NCBI GenBank assembly: GCA_040754075.1
Contig: JBFMDH010000003.1
Span: 78,307-142,306 of the forward strand
Length of the DNA stretch: 64,000 nucleotides
DNA from: Acidobacteriota bacterium
GTDB taxonomy: Bacteria; Acidobacteriota; Blastocatellia; UBA7656
Direction of reading: 5' to 3'
This document shows positions 4,382 through 36,679 of this stretch, piece after piece; position 1 is the first letter of the stretch; each line of letters opens with the position of its first letter. The position numbers were made by a program, and so were the translations under genes. Under the pieces are notes generated by a model. That model did not search any database. It was not told the origin of the DNA and saw nothing but the letters and a program-made list of their open reading frames with translations.

Positions 4382-4443
4382 GTGGAACTCTTTTAGCAAC
4401 TGACTATTGGTTGTGGTCGTGCACAGCGATCACGGAGCAAAGC

Positions 4444-7400
4444 ATGTTCAAATTAGAAAAACTTGAAATACACGGTTTTAAATCATTCGCAGATAAAACG
4501 ACACTGATTTTCGGCGAAGGCATCACCGGCATCGTCGGTCCCAACGGCTGTGGCAAATGCGTAACCGGTGACACACTTATCACTTTAGCTGATGGACGCG
4601 ATGTGCCGATTCGCCAACTGGTTGAGGATGCCATAGCAGACTCTGCCACTATTGAATTTTTCGATGATGGGTTAGTCGCACATGAAAACCCGCTTGGTAT
4701 AGAGATTCTTACGCTCAATCCGGAGACCTTACGGCTTGAACCTCGCCCGGTCAAAGCCTTTGTGAAGCGAAAAACCACACCTTATCTTTTGCGGGTGCGC
4801 ACACGTTCGGGACGCGAAGTCACGGCAACGCCCTATCATCCGTTGTTTACACTCGAAAATGGCGCACTGCGAACGCTGAAAGCCGAAGACTTAAAAAGCG
4901 GATTAAAAATTGCCGTTCCTCGTCGGTTGCCGGTTTCGAGCCGTCAGGTAAACATTGGTTCCCTCAATGAAGAGCGCGTAAGCAGCAATCGTAAATCAAT
5001 TGAGCTACCGATGACCTTCACGCCAGAGTTGGCGCGATTTTTGGGCTTGTTGATTGCTGAAGGTCGAAATACCAGCGCCAATCAAGTGTGGTTTGTAAAT
5101 TCCGATGAGGCGGTTATTAATGACTATGAGAGACTGGCAAATCAGCTTTTTGCGTTGGAAGTTCGTCGTAATCATTATAAACCTAATGCCGAAGATGCTT
5201 TGATTTACTCGCGGACATGGTGCAAAGCCCTTGAACAACTGTTTAATTTCCCGATTAATTCCGTCTCGGCGGAAAAAGAAATCCCCCAGCCCTTATTTGA
5301 ATCCGATGAAGCAACCCAATGGGCATTTCTTTCAGGTCTCTTTGAAGGCGATGCTTATATCTCAGGAGTATCGCGTTACGGAAATCAACGCCCGCCCTAC
5401 ATAGAATTCGCGACAGCCAGTAAAAAGCTTGCCGAACAGGTGATGGCTTTGCTGCTTAGGCAAAACGTCTTTGCACTTCTCAGAAAGAAAGAAAAATACG
5501 CCAGCAACACAGTTGAAAAACGCCGGAAATTCTATTATTCGGTTTATATCTATGGAACCGAACAATTGCGCCACGTTGCTAACCACCTCTCATTTGTCGG
5601 CGAGAAAAAACAGGCGTTGCAAACCTTGCGTGAGTTACCCTCTGCCGCCAATCCCAATCAAGATGTAATTCCCGGTATCACCCACTTAGTTAAAGAAGCT
5701 GTCAAACTCGCTGGCGTGAAAATGAAACCTCATCGCCGCAATCATCCGAAACTTGCGGCTTATGTGGAAAATCGTTGTGATGCCAGCCGTGGCGGATTGC
5801 TTGAAGTTGTTGAACAAATTCAAAGACTAGGCGTGTCAACCCACCTTGCCCAAGCGCACCTCAATGCCATCAATAAATTGGCAACCTCTGATGTTTACTG
5901 GGACGAAATTGTCAGCATTGACCGGGTCGAACCGATTGACAAGTTTGTATATGACTTGAGCATTGATGAGACTCATAATTTTGTAGCAGGAAATATTATT
6001 GTTCATAACAGCAACGTTTCAGAATCCATCTCCTGGGTTTTAGGTGAACAATCGGCAAAGACCTTGCGTGGCGGCAAAATGGAAGATGTCATTTTTAACG
6101 GTACGCGCGACCGCAAACCGCAGGGCATGGCAGAAGTCGTCTTGACGCTCATCGCCACCCAGGATGTCGTGTCACGCGATGCGGATGAAGAACCGCAAAG
6201 CGACGAAGCCGAATATCAAGAGGCGTTAGAGAATGCCGAACGCGCCGCGGCTGTGGCAAAAACTCTGGTCGCTGAGTATGCCCCGAAAACTGAAGAAGCG
6301 CAGGCGGAACCCGCTTTGCAAACCGCCGAGGCAACTCAACCGGAAGCCACCGGAGCAACCGGCGATGCCAATGCTTTAGCAACTGAATCAACGGTTGAGA
6401 ACCAAGTCAGCGCGTCGGTAAGTGAATCCCATCAAACCTCGCCTCTGGCTCTGGAAAATCAGCAATCGACAAATGACGCCGCAACCGCATCAACCGCCGT
6501 CGAATCGGCAACCGACACCAAAAGCGAATTGACCACAGCCCAATCCGCAATCGTAGAAGAAGCGAACGCCGACAAAAAAGCCAAAGTCAAACCGCGTAAA
6601 CGTAAAGCGGTTTCCGTAATGGCAGGCGAACGCATCACCATCGGGCGCAGGCTCTATCGCACGGGCGACAGCGATTACCTGATGAACGGGCGACTCTGTT
6701 TGCTGCGCGACATTCAAGACCTGTTTGCCGGCACAGGGCTTGGCGGCGCGCATTATGCCATCATCGAACAGGGACGCATCGGGCAGATTCTGTCATCAAA
6801 ACCTCTAGACCGCCGCGCGCTCATCGAAGAAGCCGCAGGCATCACCAAATTCAAATCGCGCAAACGCACGACCGAACTCCGTTTGGAATCTGCCAAACAG
6901 AATCTCACGCGACTCAATGACATCATCAGCGAAGTCGAACGACAGGTGAATAGCCTGAAACGACAGGCGCAAAAAGCGCGGCGCTACAAACGATTGCGTG
7001 AAGAGATGCGGGCGTTGCAATTTTCGGTTTACACGGCGGACTATTACCGTTTGAACGAAGCCGCTGAACGCCTGCTTGATGAACTCAACGCGGCTGAACA
7101 AAATCAACAACAACTCGACGCCTCGCTTGCCGAACTGGAAACCGAATATCGCGTCGTCGCGAGTGAATCGCGCACCGCCGAAGACAAGCTCACTGAACTC
7201 AAAGAAGAAGCCGCGACCATCGAACTCGAAGCCGACCGCATTCGCAACCGCCGCGCTTTTGAATCCAAACAGATTGACGAACTCACGGAGCGCATCGAAA
7301 AACTCAAAAGCGAACAACAGGAATTGGAAAATCGCCTGACGCAGATTGAATCCGAAAGCGAGCAGCGGTTGGCAAATTTACAGGCGCTCGAACAAGAACA

Positions 7401-10182
7401 CGCCGCCACACAAGCGGAACTTCGCAACCATGAGAGCGATTATCAAACGGAAGTCGCGAAATTGCGCGAGGCGGAAAACGGCATAGAAGTTTTACGCCAG
7501 CAGTTGCTCAAAGAAATCGGTTCCACCGAACGGCTCAAAAATTTGCACACCAATCTCGAAGATGGCATCCGTCGGACGGATTTGCGTCTTGTCAATTTGG
7601 GCAATGAATTGGAAAAAGCCACCAGGCGACGCGACGAAGTTTCCGCTGAATATGTGCGTGTCGGTGATGAGGTTGAAGGCGGACGGCTGCATCTTGCAGA
7701 ACTCACAACCAAAATCAATGAACGAACCCAGGCGTTTAACGAACTCCGCGAGCAAGCCAATACCAATAACAACGAATTGAATGTTCTGCGTTCGGAAATC
7801 GCCGCCGCCGAACACCGTTTGAAATCTCTGGAGGATTTGGATTCGCATCACGCCTATTATTCGGACGCCGTGCAACAGATACTTTCGCCCGAACAGCGCG
7901 CTCGCATGAATGCGCTCGGCACGCTTGCCGATTTCGTTGAAGTCGAACCGCAATATGAAATGTTAGTCGAAAGTTTGTTCAGCCGTGAATTGCAATGCGT
8001 TCTGGTGCCCACTATTGATGATGCGCTTGCCGGCGTTGAATTCATCAAATCGGAAGATTTGAGTCGCGGCGCTTTTCTGGTTGTCGGCTTGCACGGCGGC
8101 GAAGACGATTCATCGGAAAGTCGAGAGTCCGGAATCTGGAGTCTGGAGTCGCACGACGACAACGACGATGACAACGACAACAATAATGGCTTTAAGAGTC
8201 AGGATGCCGAATCAAAAGATGATGACCATAAATCTGATGAGCAACGACGCCAGACGCCAGACTCTCGACTCCAGACTTCTTATTTTGAACTCGAAGTTTT
8301 GAGCGCAATTGACCTGTTGGGACTTAGACCCGAAATCAAAGCGGTTGTTGAGCGCGCCTTCCCCGAACGTTGCGCAGCGTCCGTAGTGCCCGATATGGAA
8401 GCCGCTTTGCAGCTTTCGATTGAAAATCCGTCACGGGTTTATGTGACGCTCGAAGGCGAACAGGTCGTCAACGGTCGGTTGATTGTTACGGGTGGACAGG
8501 CTGGACAAAAAGGCACATCGCTGCTGGCGCTCAAACGCGAAATCAAACAACTGCGCGTGCAGACGCAAATTCTGCTCGAAGAAGAATCGCGCGCGGTTGC
8601 CGATTTGAGTGAAACCCAAAAACAACTTGAAATTATCGAAAATCAGAAACTATCGCTGGATAGCGAACTGCGCGAAAAAGAGAAAGAGGCTGCCGCCCGC
8701 GATTCGCATTTTGCGGCTTTAGCCAAAGAACTCGAACGCGCCGAACAGTACGTTCGGGTAGTCGAAGCGGAAATCGAACAGGCGCGTCTTGAACATCGGG
8801 ATTTGCAATCGCGCATCGAACAGTTAGCCATTGAACTGACCGCCGCCGAAGCCTCGCGCAACAACGCTGAACAGGCAGTCACGGCGGCACAAGCGGCTTT
8901 TGTAGCGTTGCGCGCGGAAGTTGAACAATTTGCCGAACGCCTGTCGGCAATGCGCGCCGAAGTTGCCGCGCGCGCCGAACGCTTGCAGGGGGCGCGCACC
9001 GAAATGCGCCGCACCGAAACCGAAGCGCAGGAGTTGCAAGCTCGCATTAATCGCAATCGCACGGAAATTTATGAAAGCCACACGCGCATTGATGAACTTT
9101 CAACCTCGCACTTAGAAGGTGAAGACGCGGCTATCCGGTTCGATGAGGAACGCGCTACGCTGGTGGAAGCGATTCAAGCGGCGAGCGCACAGCTAATGAC
9201 GGCGCGCGCCCGCACCGATGAACTCGAAAAGACCTTGAGCCAACTCCGCCAAGATGCGAACGTCGCGCGTGACCGCCGCAGCGCAACGGAAATCGAACTC
9301 ACGCGGGTGAAATCCGACGCCGAGCATCTGTCACGCACCTGTTTTTCGGAACTGGCGATGACGCTTGAAGAAGTCGTCGCGAAACAGGCGTCAGGCGTCA
9401 GGCGTCAGGAGTCAGGCGTCGAAGCACAAGATTCATACGAAAACGGTGAATCCGTTGCACAACCGATTGCCGATGAAGCAACCGGCAACGCCGCGACCGG
9501 CGACCAGCCACCGGCTACCGATGACCAACCTTTCGACCTGGAAACCGCCAAGAGCCGTTTGGATGAATTGCGCGTCAAACTCGATGACATCGGCCCGGTG
9601 AATATGATGGCGCTTGAAGAACTGGAAGAAGCCGACGAACGTTTCAAGTTTTTATCCGAACAGCGCCGCGATATTCTCGAATCCATCAGCCTCACGGAAG
9701 AGACGCTTGCGGAAATCAAGCGCCGTTCGCGCGAACGTTTCCGTCACGCCTTCGCCCACATCAATGAAAATTTCCAACGGATGTTCGTTGAACTGTTTGG
9801 CGGCGGACGCGGCGAGATGATTTTGATTGATGAGGATGACGTTTTGGAATCGGGTATTGATATAATTGCTCAGCCGCCCGGCAAGCGTTTGCAAAATGTG
9901 ATGCTGCTTTCAGGCGGTGAAAAAGCCATGTCGGCGATATCGCTCGTGCTCGCGATATTCCAGTATAAACCGTCGCCGTTTTGTATTCTCGACGAAGTCG
10001 ATGCGCCGCTTGATGAAATGAACGTCGGACGTTTTGCCCAAAAGGTTGCAGAGATGAGCAACGAAACCCAATTCCTGGTCATCACCCACAACAAAACGAC
10101 GATGGAAGCGGCGCAGGCGCTTTACGGCGTGACGATGGAAGAACCCGGCATATCCAAATTAGTATCGGTGAAATTTGAGTAG
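4444..10182 (+). CDS. smc: Chromosome partition protein SMC, intein-containing precursor
   Basis: The 1912-residue precursor of the SMC condensin ATPase, which compacts and segregates the chromosome. The start is the ATG at 4444 with GGAG at 4434-4437; a TTG at 4411 also keeps the frame but has no site. The N-terminal head begins FKSFADKTTLIFGEGITGIVG and the P-loop GPNGCGK is interrupted after its Lys (residue 38) by an intein (residues 39-522). The extein resumes SNVSESISWVLGEQS. Two long coiled coils flank a hinge (about 1130-1310). The signature LSGGEK is at 1822-1827 and Walker B (FCILDEVDAP) at 1846-1855. After splicing about 1428 residues remain, some 230 more than usual. Three insertions explain this: an acidic Ala/Thr-rich stretch in the head (about 572-722), a heptamer-repeat insertion in the hinge (1225-1279) and another in the returning coil (1648-1695). 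scpA and scpB are not nearby. Confidence 0.97.
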   Translation: MFKLEKLEIHGFKSFADKTTLIFGEGITGIVGPNGCGKCVTGDTLITLADGRDVPIRQLVEDAIADSATIEFFDDGLVAHENPLGIEILTLNPETLRLEPRPVKAFVKRKTTPYLLRVRTRSGREVTATPYHPLFTLENGALRTLKAEDLKSGLKIAVPRRLPVSSRQVNIGSLNEERVSSNRKSIELPMTFTPELARFLGLLIAEGRNTSANQVWFVNSDEAVINDYERLANQLFALEVRRNHYKPNAEDALIYSRTWCKALEQLFNFPINSVSAEKEIPQPLFESDEATQWAFLSGLFEGDAYISGVSRYGNQRPPYIEFATASKKLAEQVMALLLRQNVFALLRKKEKYASNTVEKRRKFYYSVYIYGTEQLRHVANHLSFVGEKKQALQTLRELPSAANPNQDVIPGITHLVKEAVKLAGVKMKPHRRNHPKLAAYVENRCDASRGGLLEVVEQIQRLGVSTHLAQAHLNAINKLATSDVYWDEIVSIDRVEPIDKFVYDLSIDETHNFVAGNIIVHNSNVSESISWVLGEQSAKTLRGGKMEDVIFNGTRDRKPQGMAEVVLTLIATQDVVSRDADEEPQSDEAEYQEALENAERAAAVAKTLVAEYAPKTEEAQAEPALQTAEATQPEATGATGDANALATESTVENQVSASVSESHQTSPLALENQQSTNDAATASTAVESATDTKSELTTAQSAIVEEANADKKAKVKPRKRKAVSVMAGERITIGRRLYRTGDSDYLMNGRLCLLRDIQDLFAGTGLGGAHYAIIEQGRIGQILSSKPLDRRALIEEAAGITKFKSRKRTTELRLESAKQNLTRLNDIISEVERQVNSLKRQAQKARRYKRLREEMRALQFSVYTADYYRLNEAAERLLDELNAAEQNQQQLDASLAELETEYRVVASESRTAEDKLTELKEEAATIELEADRIRNRRAFESKQIDELTERIEKLKSEQQELENRLTQIESESEQRLANLQALEQEHAATQAELRNHESDYQTEVAKLREAENGIEVLRQQLLKEIGSTERLKNLHTNLEDGIRRTDLRLVNLGNELEKATRRRDEVSAEYVRVGDEVEGGRLHLAELTTKINERTQAFNELREQANTNNNELNVLRSEIAAAEHRLKSLEDLDSHHAYYSDAVQQILSPEQRARMNALGTLADFVEVEPQYEMLVESLFSRELQCVLVPTIDDALAGVEFIKSEDLSRGAFLVVGLHGGEDDSSESRESGIWSLESHDDNDDDNDNNNGFKSQDAESKDDDHKSDEQRRQTPDSRLQTSYFELEVLSAIDLLGLRPEIKAVVERAFPERCAASVVPDMEAALQLSIENPSRVYVTLEGEQVVNGRLIVTGGQAGQKGTSLLALKREIKQLRVQTQILLEEESRAVADLSETQKQLEIIENQKLSLDSELREKEKEAAARDSHFAALAKELERAEQYVRVVEAEIEQARLEHRDLQSRIEQLAIELTAAEASRNNAEQAVTAAQAAFVALRAEVEQFAERLSAMRAEVAARAERLQGARTEMRRTETEAQELQARINRNRTEIYESHTRIDELSTSHLEGEDAAIRFDEERATLVEAIQAASAQLMTARARTDELEKTLSQLRQDANVARDRRSATEIELTRVKSDAEHLSRTCFSELAMTLEEVVAKQASGVRRQESGVEAQDSYENGESVAQPIADEATGNAATGDQPPATDDQPFDLETAKSRLDELRVKLDDIGPVNMMALEELEEADERFKFLSEQRRDILESISLTEETLAEIKRRSRERFRHAFAHINENFQRMFVELFGGGRGEMILIDEDDVLESGIDIIAQPPGKRLQNVMLLSGGEKAMSAISLVLAIFQYKPSPFCILDEVDAPLDEMNVGRFAQKVAEMSNETQFLVITHNKTTMEAAQALYGVTMEEPGISKLVSVKFE
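4558..6009 (+). mobile_element. Intein with LAGLIDADG homing endonuclease in the SMC P-loop
   Basis: A 484-residue protein intron between Lys38 and Ser of the Walker A motif (GPNGCGK / SN). It starts with Cys (CVTGDTLITLADGRDVPI, block A). The block B Thr/His motif is GREVTATPYHPLF. Block F is YDLSIDETHNFVAG and the end is NIIVHN followed by extein Ser, so Cys1, the block B His, the penultimate His, the terminal Asn and the +1 nucleophile are all present and splicing should work. Between the splicing blocks are two dodecapeptide motifs, LGLLIAEG (near 5040) and LSGLFEGDAY (near 5334), each keeping the catalytic acid (Glu and Asp). The homing endonuclease therefore looks intact. Insertion into a nucleotide-binding loop is the usual choice of inteins. 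Without splicing the ATPase cannot be active. Confidence 0.97.
6157..6624 (+). other. Low-complexity insertion in the SMC head domain
   Basis: Right after the strand GMAEVVLTL of the N-terminal head, about 150 residues rich in Ala, Glu, Thr and Gln are inserted. They end in a basic patch (KKAKVKPRKRKA) before the expected strand ERITIGRRLYRTGDSDY. In ordinary SMCs these two strands are joined by a short loop. No heptamer array is obvious here, so its origin may differ from the other two insertions. It is probably a disordered surface loop. Confidence 0.75.
8116..8280 (+). repeat. Paired heptamer arrays inserted in the SMC hinge
   Basis: Five 7-bp units ending in (A)RTC (GAAAGTC, GAGAGTC, CGGAATC, TGGAGTC, TGGAGTC; 8116-8150) face five units starting with GAC (GACGCCA twice, GACTCTC, GACTCCA, GACTTCT; 8246-8280), with 95 bp between them. 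The right arm is a diverged reverse complement of the left. The whole is 165 bp (55 codons) and begins exactly at a codon boundary. It encodes an Asp/Ser/Asn-rich stretch where normal SMC hinges have none. The outer boundaries are set by the repeat, not by a known target duplication. Confidence 0.85.
9386..9526 (+). repeat. Paired heptamer arrays inserted in the SMC C-terminal coiled coil
   Basis: Five units AGGCGTC/AGGAGTC (9386-9420) are followed 71 bp later by five units ending in ACC (CGCGACC, GGCGACC, AGCCACC, GGCTACC, GATGACC; 9492-9526). The total is 141 bp, 47 codons, in frame. The two arrays are not complements of each other, unlike those in the hinge. The encoded segment (ASGVRRQESGVEAQ... 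to ...PPATDDQP) has no heptad pattern, so it should bulge out of the coiled coil just before DLETAKSRLDELR. Confidence 0.8.
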
Positions 10183-10183
10183 T

Positions 10184-10945
10184 ATGAAAAAGGATTCAGG
10201 ATTCAGGATTCAGGATTCAATTGAACGAAAGGTTCATTTTTTGAAAATTGCAAAAGCGCTGGTTGCTGTTTGCTGGTTGCTGTTTGTCGCGGGTCTTTCG
10301 CCCGCATTCGCTCAAGAAAAAAGCGAATCCGATGATTCGGCAACTTTGCAATTCAGCTACAAATTCGAGCAGCCGCGTTTCTGGATTTCGATTATTGACA
10401 TTCAACTTGACGCAAACGGGGAAGGCGAACTCCGATTCAAACGCGGCGAAGAAGATGAATTGATTGATTTAAAAATGAAGGTGTTGCCCGCAACCCTCAG
10501 TCGCCTTCGCCAGCTTTACGAAAAAACCAATTTTCTCAACTCGGAAGAAAATTATCAGGATAAAAAAGACCACTCGAATTTGGGCACCGTCACCCTGCTG
10601 TTGTCATCCGGCAATCGTCAGCGACAGGCAAAGTTCAATTATACGCCGAATCTCGATATAAAAGAGATTGCCGAAATTTTTCGCGGACTTGCCACCCAGC
10701 GGATTCACCAACTCGATATAGAAAATGCCCAGCAATATCAACCGCTCGATATTCCCAAACGGCTCGAAGAGGTTGAAAACGATCTGCGGCTTGAGCGTAT
10801 CACCGAACCGCCGCAACTCATACCCGTGCTTCGCGAAATTTCCAACAGTAATTTTGCTCCAATCATTGCCCGCAATCAGGCAAAACGCATCGTCGAAAGC
10901 ATCGAAAAACAGAAGTATAAAACTCCAATCAGAGGAGAAAAATAA
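10184..10945 (+). CDS. Secreted protein of unknown function
   Basis: I do not recognise this family. It follows the smc stop by one base. The first ATG is at 10184, but the signal peptide proper (LKIAKALVAVCWLLFVAGLSPAFA) begins at a TTG at 10241 preceded by GAAAGG, so translation may start there. The 19 extra residues are encoded by a heptamer array. The mature part, about 210 residues, has no obvious membrane segment. It looks mixed alpha/beta, with a C-terminal helical half rich in Leu, Ile, Gln and Arg. The close spacing suggests co-transcription with smc, though a functional link is not shown. Confidence 0.6.
   Translation: MKKDSGFRIQDSIERKVHFLKIAKALVAVCWLLFVAGLSPAFAQEKSESDDSATLQFSYKFEQPRFWISIIDIQLDANGEGELRFKRGEEDELIDLKMKVLPATLSRLRQLYEKTNFLNSEENYQDKKDHSNLGTVTLLLSSGNRQRQAKFNYTPNLDIKEIAEIFRGLATQRIHQLDIENAQQYQPLDIPKRLEEVENDLRLERITEPPQLIPVLREISNSNFAPIIARNQAKRIVESIEKQKYKTPIRGEK
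10192..10288 (+). repeat. Paired heptamer arrays across the start of the gene after smc
   Basis: Four perfect units GGATTCA (10192-10219) and, 41 bp on, four units GGTTGCT/GTTTGCT/GGTTGCT/GTTTGTC (10261-10288). The first array lies in the leader or N-terminal extension. The second encodes the hydrophobic core of the signal peptide (VAVCWLLFV). Confidence 0.85.
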
Positions 10946-15455: not shown

Positions 15456-15591
15456 AGGATTCAGGAAGAAGAAAGTATGAAGTAGGAACGATGAACGATG
15501 AACAAAAAGAATTTCACCTTGTTCATCCTTCAGCCTTCCGTCTTCATCGCTATCCTAAACTCTAAATCCTAAACCCTGAATCTTGTATCCT
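15456..15591. repeat. Paired heptamer arrays between the efflux adaptor and ATPase genes
   Basis: Seven units of seven bases with core A-G/T-G/A-A (AGGATTC, AGGAAGA, AGAAAGT, ATGAAGT, AGGAACG, ATGAACG, ATGAACA; 15456-15504) face about ten complementary-type units (GTTCATC, CTTCAGC, CTTCCGT, CTTCATC, one 8-mer, AAACTCT, AAATCCT, AAACCCT, GAATCTT, GTATCCT; 15521-15591) across a 16-bp loop. The transcript could fold into a long imperfect hairpin in the operon, between the adaptor stop and the ATPase start. Confidence 0.85.
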
Positions 15592-25693: not shown

Positions 25694-25721
25694 GCTGAGG
25701 ACTGAGGACTGAGGACTGAGT
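25694..25721. repeat. Left heptamer array of the cassette
   Basis: GCTGAGG followed by three ACTGAGG/ACTGAGT units, preceded by AGT. It is the inverted counterpart of 26130-26160. Confidence 0.9.
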
Positions 25722-26129: not shown

Positions 26130-26160
26130 ACTCAGTCCTCAGTCCTCAGCACTCAGTCCT
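26130..26160. repeat. Right heptamer array of the cassette
   Basis: Units CTCAGTC, CTCAGTC, CTCAGCA, CTCAGTC. It is the reverse complement of the left array apart from the unit order at the outer edge, and it ends at the stop codon of the next gene. Confidence 0.9.
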
Positions 26161-36409: not shown

Positions 36410-36444
36410 GAAAACTAAAAACTAAAAACTGAAAACTGAAAACT
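36410..36444. repeat. Single heptamer array upstream of the VIT/vWA gene
   Basis: Five units (GAAAACT, AAAAACT, AAAAACT, GAAAACT, GAAAACT) in strict 7-bp register. No facing partner array was found within a few hundred bases. The intergenic region 36338-36928 also holds the MITE-like palindrome and a terminator, and no credible gene. Confidence 0.85.
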
Positions 36445-36679
36445 AAATTGGCGAACCCATTCTGATTCTGGCAGCACGGTGCGAATTTTTTGTTGTTTGA
36501 TTGACGGGCTTCTATGTTTGGGGCGCTCAAGGTTTCGGCACAGAAGCCCACGGTTTATTTGGTTGAAAGCTTTCACATACAGAATGCGAGAGCGGCAGCG
36601 GCTTGCAGATTTGCGGTAAAAATTTTTGTGGACGAGCAAGGCAGGTAGAATGATTTCAAGAAAATATTTTTAAGCAGCT

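Follow-up and report, generated by a model that had tools for sequence, protein, structure and literature searches.

Short tandem arrays of 7-bp units encode the hydrophobic cores of signal peptides in the genome of an Acidobacteriota bacterium and in relatives within its class. A gene for a predicted exported protein downstream of smc offers a modest but genuine instance of such a core; the general form of the phenomenon is more worth following. The best explanation, and probably the correct one, is that a heptamer array expanded inside a signal peptide that was already there and persisted as its product was still hydrophobic, and that a dispersed heptamer, TTTTGCC, overwrote other signal peptides.

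The window, i.e., the whole stretch of 64,000 nucleotides that was analysed (contig C3 of genome G000, positions 78307–142306), belongs to a host genome of 7.58 Mb; genes were called by open frame, and signal peptides and cleavage sites were assigned by rule. The gene under study (10241–10945, plus strand) encodes a conserved, predicted exported protein of unknown family, for which a Pfam search returned no match, and it has a single orthologue in 56 of 58 relatives. Upstream of it on the same strand is smc (4411–10182; Pfam SMC_N, SMC_hinge and Intein_splicing), which ends with the stop codon TAG at 10180–10182. The Walker A loop of the SMC protein is interrupted by an intein that includes a LAGLIDADG domain (GPNGCGK before the insertion, C...HN as the ends of the intein, SN after it). 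Heptamer arrays also occur within smc (GAGTCTG, GACTCCA, and CAGGCGT at 8125–8150, 8246–8277, and 9385–9420), where their products are hydrophilic linkers, and the linker from the last of them is variable among relatives. Further arrays in the window consist of ATCCTAA, CTGAGGA, CTCAGTC, and AAAACTA units (15552–15582, 25695–25720, 26131–26160, and 36411–36447), and the spacer between smc and the orthologous gene in some relatives (L012, L015, L032) contains other heptamers, GGACTAA and TTCTCAA.

Two arrays are found at the beginning of the gene, and their roles depend on the start codon. The first, AGGATTC repeated 4.1 times with 100% match (10191–10219, plus strand; equivalently, 4.1 units of GGATTCA), lies in the spacer if translation starts at TTG 10241. 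Read from this codon, the protein begins with a canonical signal peptide, MKIAKALVAVCWLLFVAGLSPAFA (10241–10312), with predicted cleavage before QEKS. TTG 10241 is probably the true start, because a candidate Shine-Dalgarno sequence, GAAAGG (10227–10232), is located 8 nt upstream and because the N-termini of orthologues begin near the hydrophobic core. The rival start is ATG 10184, whose open frame begins one base past the smc stop, as in coupled translation; the array would then be read as DSGFRIQ and would code an N-terminal extension, MKKDSGFRIQDSIERKVHF, ahead of the signal peptide. This start is improbable in view of the placement of GAAAGG, the N-termini of the orthologues, and the mainly intergenic distribution of GGATTCA as a dispersed repeat. 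The first-pass annotation had offered an odd N-terminal extension or a leader as the role of these units; a noncoding leader is likely, and the coded extension, which needs ATG 10184, fits less well than TTG 10241.

Heptamer arrays are a general feature of this genome. In 864 kb of it there are 54 period-7 arrays, the majority outside long open frames, and none of period 10, 11, or 13. Two heptamers recur at many sites, in the manner of short tandemly repeated repetitive (STRR) sequences: three exact units of GGATTCA have 48 matches genome-wide versus 0 in the reversed control, and TTTTGCC has 72 matches at no more than one mismatch, in about 37 arrays, versus 0 in the control. Hits to GGATTCA vary sharply among relatives, from 168 in G005 to 0 in its congener G002, and the copy beside the gene is probably an ordinary dispersed heptamer in the leader. 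GGATTCA also forms the outer arms of nested palindromes, with ATGAACG/GTTCATC as inner arms (L071:17939–18099, L048:10678–10781, and L079:4491–4630).

The second array, GCTGGTTGCTGTTT, is a 14-bp unit (GCTGGTT/GCTGTTT) repeated 2.1 times at 10258–10286 on the plus strand, with a match of 100% at period 14 and 86% at period 7. Read from TTG 10241, it codes LVAVCWLLF inside the signal peptide, so the earlier proposal that GGTTGCT/GTTTGCT units encode the hydrophobic core is borne out. When the segment is recoded synonymously according to host codon use, the period-14 run is reached at p = 1e-4 and the period-7 score at p = 2e-5; recoding of a wider segment gives p = 5e-4. None of 200,000 random cores drawn from the genome's own signal-peptide codons reaches the run. 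The sample contains about 212 signal-peptide-like starts, a number from which chance would be expected to produce far fewer than one case of this kind. The two arrays belong to different families, the first dispersed and the second confined, in the host genome, to this gene. No second copy of the GGTTGCT/GTTTGCT array was found in the host genome, GGTTGCT was consequently rejected as a dispersed family there, and an array of it occurs in just 1 other of 162 genomes of the class. The looser pattern of three GGTNGCY units (no more than two mismatches) is enriched, with 71 matches versus 14 in the control, and a loose kinship of the core array with the common GGTAGCC arrays is possible. The tie of the core array to the dispersed families is one of kind, not of sequence.

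A hydrophobic N-terminal segment, similar in length but encoded by unrelated codons, is present in each of the 28 usable orthologues, and apart from the window copy none of their signal peptides is convincingly periodic. The signal peptide of the gene thus appears to be ancestral, and the array to have overwritten or grown within it. The suggestion that a repeat had supplied or replaced an export signal does not hold here in its first part, since the orthologues already possess one; a probable case of replacement is found elsewhere, at ActE (see below). The nearest orthologue, in G001, has the signal peptide MRQCLMVGCLLLVAWCGFGLTTQA; a common origin of the two was rejected, their similarity being no better than that between unrelated signal peptides. 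Coincidence, by which codons of a core rich in Leu, Val, Ala, and Cys merely look periodic and are unrelated to the heptamer arrays of the genome, would agree with the lack of GGTTGCT arrays elsewhere in the genome, with the orthologues that do not have such an array, and with a score for similarity at the DNA level to the signal peptide of G001 (14) that does not exceed the scores for unrelated ones (15, 14, and 14). It is nevertheless an unlikely account, given the p-values of 1e-4 to 2e-5 for recodings of identical residues, the random cores, and the clarity of the phenomenon at many other genes. It had been anticipated that orthologues with different codons would reduce the array to coincidence; this does not follow, as such an array would rarely arise by chance even with the amino acids fixed.

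Elsewhere in the host genome, a TTTTGCC array forms the N-terminal signal-peptide core in six other long reading frames. These encode a SCO1-like protein (signal MIHKSLLPFAFCFLLFAFPVWSFAQ), an ActE-like cytochrome c lipoprotein (signal MKILLTKKRFLPFAFCLLPLAFFSAAC; Pfam Cytochrome_CBB3; named ActE in this analysis from its lipobox cytochrome and its SCO1 neighbour), a PQQ-type beta-propeller protein, a fibronectin-III lipoprotein (signal MLQLRPFAFCLLPFAFCLFFSAC), a fifth protein that is without a Pfam match, and a TPR protein (Pfam). Arrays appear to gather around gene starts in general, since some TTTTGCC arrays directly precede the start codons of non-exported genes. In the host genome (L157) and in G031 (L378), which represent two different families, apparently the same lipoprotein gene follows the same upstream coding end; in both, the left arm comes after the stop of the upstream frame and the signal peptide is written in TTTTGCC units. 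The pattern may reflect an ancient array or repeated invasion. Per 10 kb, the host genome has 2.7 period-7 arrays in signal-peptide cores, compared with 0.25 in the rest of its coding DNA and 4.1 elsewhere. Once the window is excluded, 2 of the 19 arrays in coding DNA fall in signal peptides (p = 0.03); the figure for G031 without its ActE region is 1 of 15 (p = 0.20). By this measure, which is based on samples of 0.84–0.90 Mb of the 7.6-Mb genome, 0.56 Mb of G031, and 0.24 Mb of G020, the excess over other coding DNA is modest; the test on orthologues is stronger.

For that test, 77 signal peptides from three orthologue families (30 of ActE, 19 of SCO1, and 28 of the window gene) were scored against synonymous recodings. 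Period 7 is reached at p < 0.001 in 12 of the 77 (7 ActE, 4 SCO1, and 1 window gene), and the control periods 5, 8, 10, 11, and 13 are reached at this level in none. The units, TTTTGCC, TGTTGCC, CTTCTGT, TCCTCGA, TTTTTAC, and CTACTGC, differ between lineages, and recurrent recruitment thus fits better than one inherited array. Certain signal-peptide repeats in these families are octamers (CTTTGTGC and GTCTCCGC).

What may be the clearest case of repeats replacing an export signal is provided by ActE in one genus. The ActE signal of G046 is plain (MLKARLQKIGLAVCLTMTALGLSAC), and those of G015 and G031, from the same genus, share its start-codon context and the beginning of the mature protein and are about 78 bases longer. 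The extra segment comprises a GTCAAAA/GGCAAAA arm, a loop, and a TTTTGCC arm that codes FLIFAFCLLPFAFLSAAC. Its left arm either codes KSKVKSKKSKGKS or, if translation starts at an ATG after the arm, provides AAAAGG as a ribosome site. The flanks are the same and one orthologue is free of the repeat, so that a plain and a repeat signal occupy one site, with either direction of change possible, since both arms are also present in ActE of G019, from another genus of that family. The SCO1 array is decayed in G031 and kept in G015 and G046.

A scan of GTDB genomes found three TTTTGCC units in at least 118 stretches from many phyla. A coarse N-terminal filter was passed by 13 of 81 arrays read, several of which are probably spurious. 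Convincing cases are LptE (signal MPRSILDFCLLPFAFCLLPFFSSC; Pfam LptE, 4e-11), a beta-propeller lipoprotein (L269), an ankyrin lipoprotein (L274), and a Moheibacter protein (L261, Bacteroidota) whose signal joins GGTTATT/GGTTGCT heptamers, among them the unit of the window array, to TTTTGCC. LptE and the beta-propeller lipoprotein are from other Acidobacteriota. The signal of the latter, MKAKGKGQKAKGKRP-loop-FLIFAFCLLPFAFAAC, coincides with an entire inverted pair and looks like a whole lipoprotein signal made from it.

The proposed mechanism begins with the length of the unit. Since a 7-bp unit is one base longer than two codons, all reading frames of a heptamer array yield a single heptapeptide: GCWLLVA for GGTTGCT and FCLLPFA for TTTTGCC, both good hydrophobic cores. 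GGCAAAA, which is TTTTGCC read on the complementary strand, yields the basic GKRQKAK. Signal peptides would be among the few coding sites where arrays can land, spread, and decay, because only charge followed by hydrophobicity is needed. The window array would have grown by slippage or by a 14-bp duplication inside the DNA of a pre-existing signal peptide, and would have been retained because the encoded peptide was still hydrophobic, a change presumed to be neutral. Dispersed TTTTGCC would repeatedly have overwritten signal peptides in this genome and class, and an inverted pair may sometimes have contributed its left arm as leader or basic n-region and its right arm as core.

The arrangement of neighbouring arrays bears both on this mechanism and on a regulatory alternative. 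In a 904-kb sample of the host genome, all 21 close array pairs (less than 300 bp) are inverted, and 19 have the purine-rich arm first; no mobile element was found behind the inverted pairs. Complementary codons swap charged and hydrophobic residues, so such a pair encodes a basic stretch and then a hydrophobic core in any frame. Purine-first pairs (GGCAAAA...TTTTGCC) could then be ready-made signal-peptide cassettes whose dispersal repeatedly creates or replaces export signals, an extension that is held only tentatively. The arrangement of the pairs is also in keeping with a regulatory element, in which inverted arms at gene starts would form an mRNA hairpin or a site for a translation regulator and the peptide would be a by-product; TTTTGCC arrays before non-exported genes agree with this, as do the TAACTGA heptamers near starts that are proposed as translational regulators in Beggiatoaceae (PMC4679880). 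However, the folds are unremarkable against shuffled sequence (z = −0.62 for actE of G015 and −0.69 for the window leader), on which ground an RNA hairpin was rejected, and neither the window array nor the SCO1 and ActE signal-peptide arrays of the host have an inverted partner, which makes a regulatory element unlikely as the general explanation. Phase variation, in which the exported protein would be switched off or on by a frame shift whenever the core gains or loses a unit of 7 or 14 bp, draws on the unit length, not a multiple of 3, and on the location of the array inside the signal-peptide code, both of which recall opa (PMC3960869, PMC3899988). It appears less likely still, as the arrays are short (two to five units) and often imperfect, and as their carriers include respiratory and LPS-assembly proteins (ActE, SCO1, and LptE) that are unlikely to be switched.

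The preferred reading, growth within or overwriting of existing signals by heptamers, would provide a concrete route from non-coding repeats to working export signals: 7-base units remove the problem of frame, a wide range of hydrophobic sequences can serve in a signal peptide, and the order of charge and then hydrophobicity comes with inverted pairs. It would help to account for the fast change of signal peptides between orthologues, and it is a warning for annotation that N-termini that look like repeats, such as LLPFAFCLLPFAF, can be real.

Repeats that are read as protein have a precedent in Rickettsia palindromic elements, which are in-frame insertions of short palindromic repeats in genes; these are longer, unique elements rather than heptamer arrays and are not known to be tied to signal peptides. 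A literature search returned nothing on dispersed heptamers as signal-peptide code, which is weak evidence, as subscription papers were mostly outside its reach. The dispersed heptamers of Xanthomonas, Nostoc, and other cyanobacteria (GGGNATC and STRR; PMC4692102) resemble GGATTCA and TTTTGCC in being genome-wide, mostly non-coding, variable in copy number, and sometimes arranged as inverted pairs, but no signal-peptide coding role is described for them in the part of that source available here. TAACTGA direct repeats of Beggiatoaceae, arrays of which are also found across Cyanobacteria and Bacteroidetes, are likewise heptamers that often lie directly before start codons and are proposed sites of translational regulators, but they lie outside the coding frame (PMC4679880). 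The closest precedent is Neisseria opa, whose expression is switched through frame shifts caused by CTCTT pentamers in the leader-coding region (PMC3960869, PMC3899988). As in opa, the window array is a short tandem repeat whose unit is not a multiple of 3 and which encodes part of a signal peptide; in opa the repeat number varies and switches expression, whereas here the units are of 7 bp, the arrays are short and impure, and the family is scattered genome-wide.
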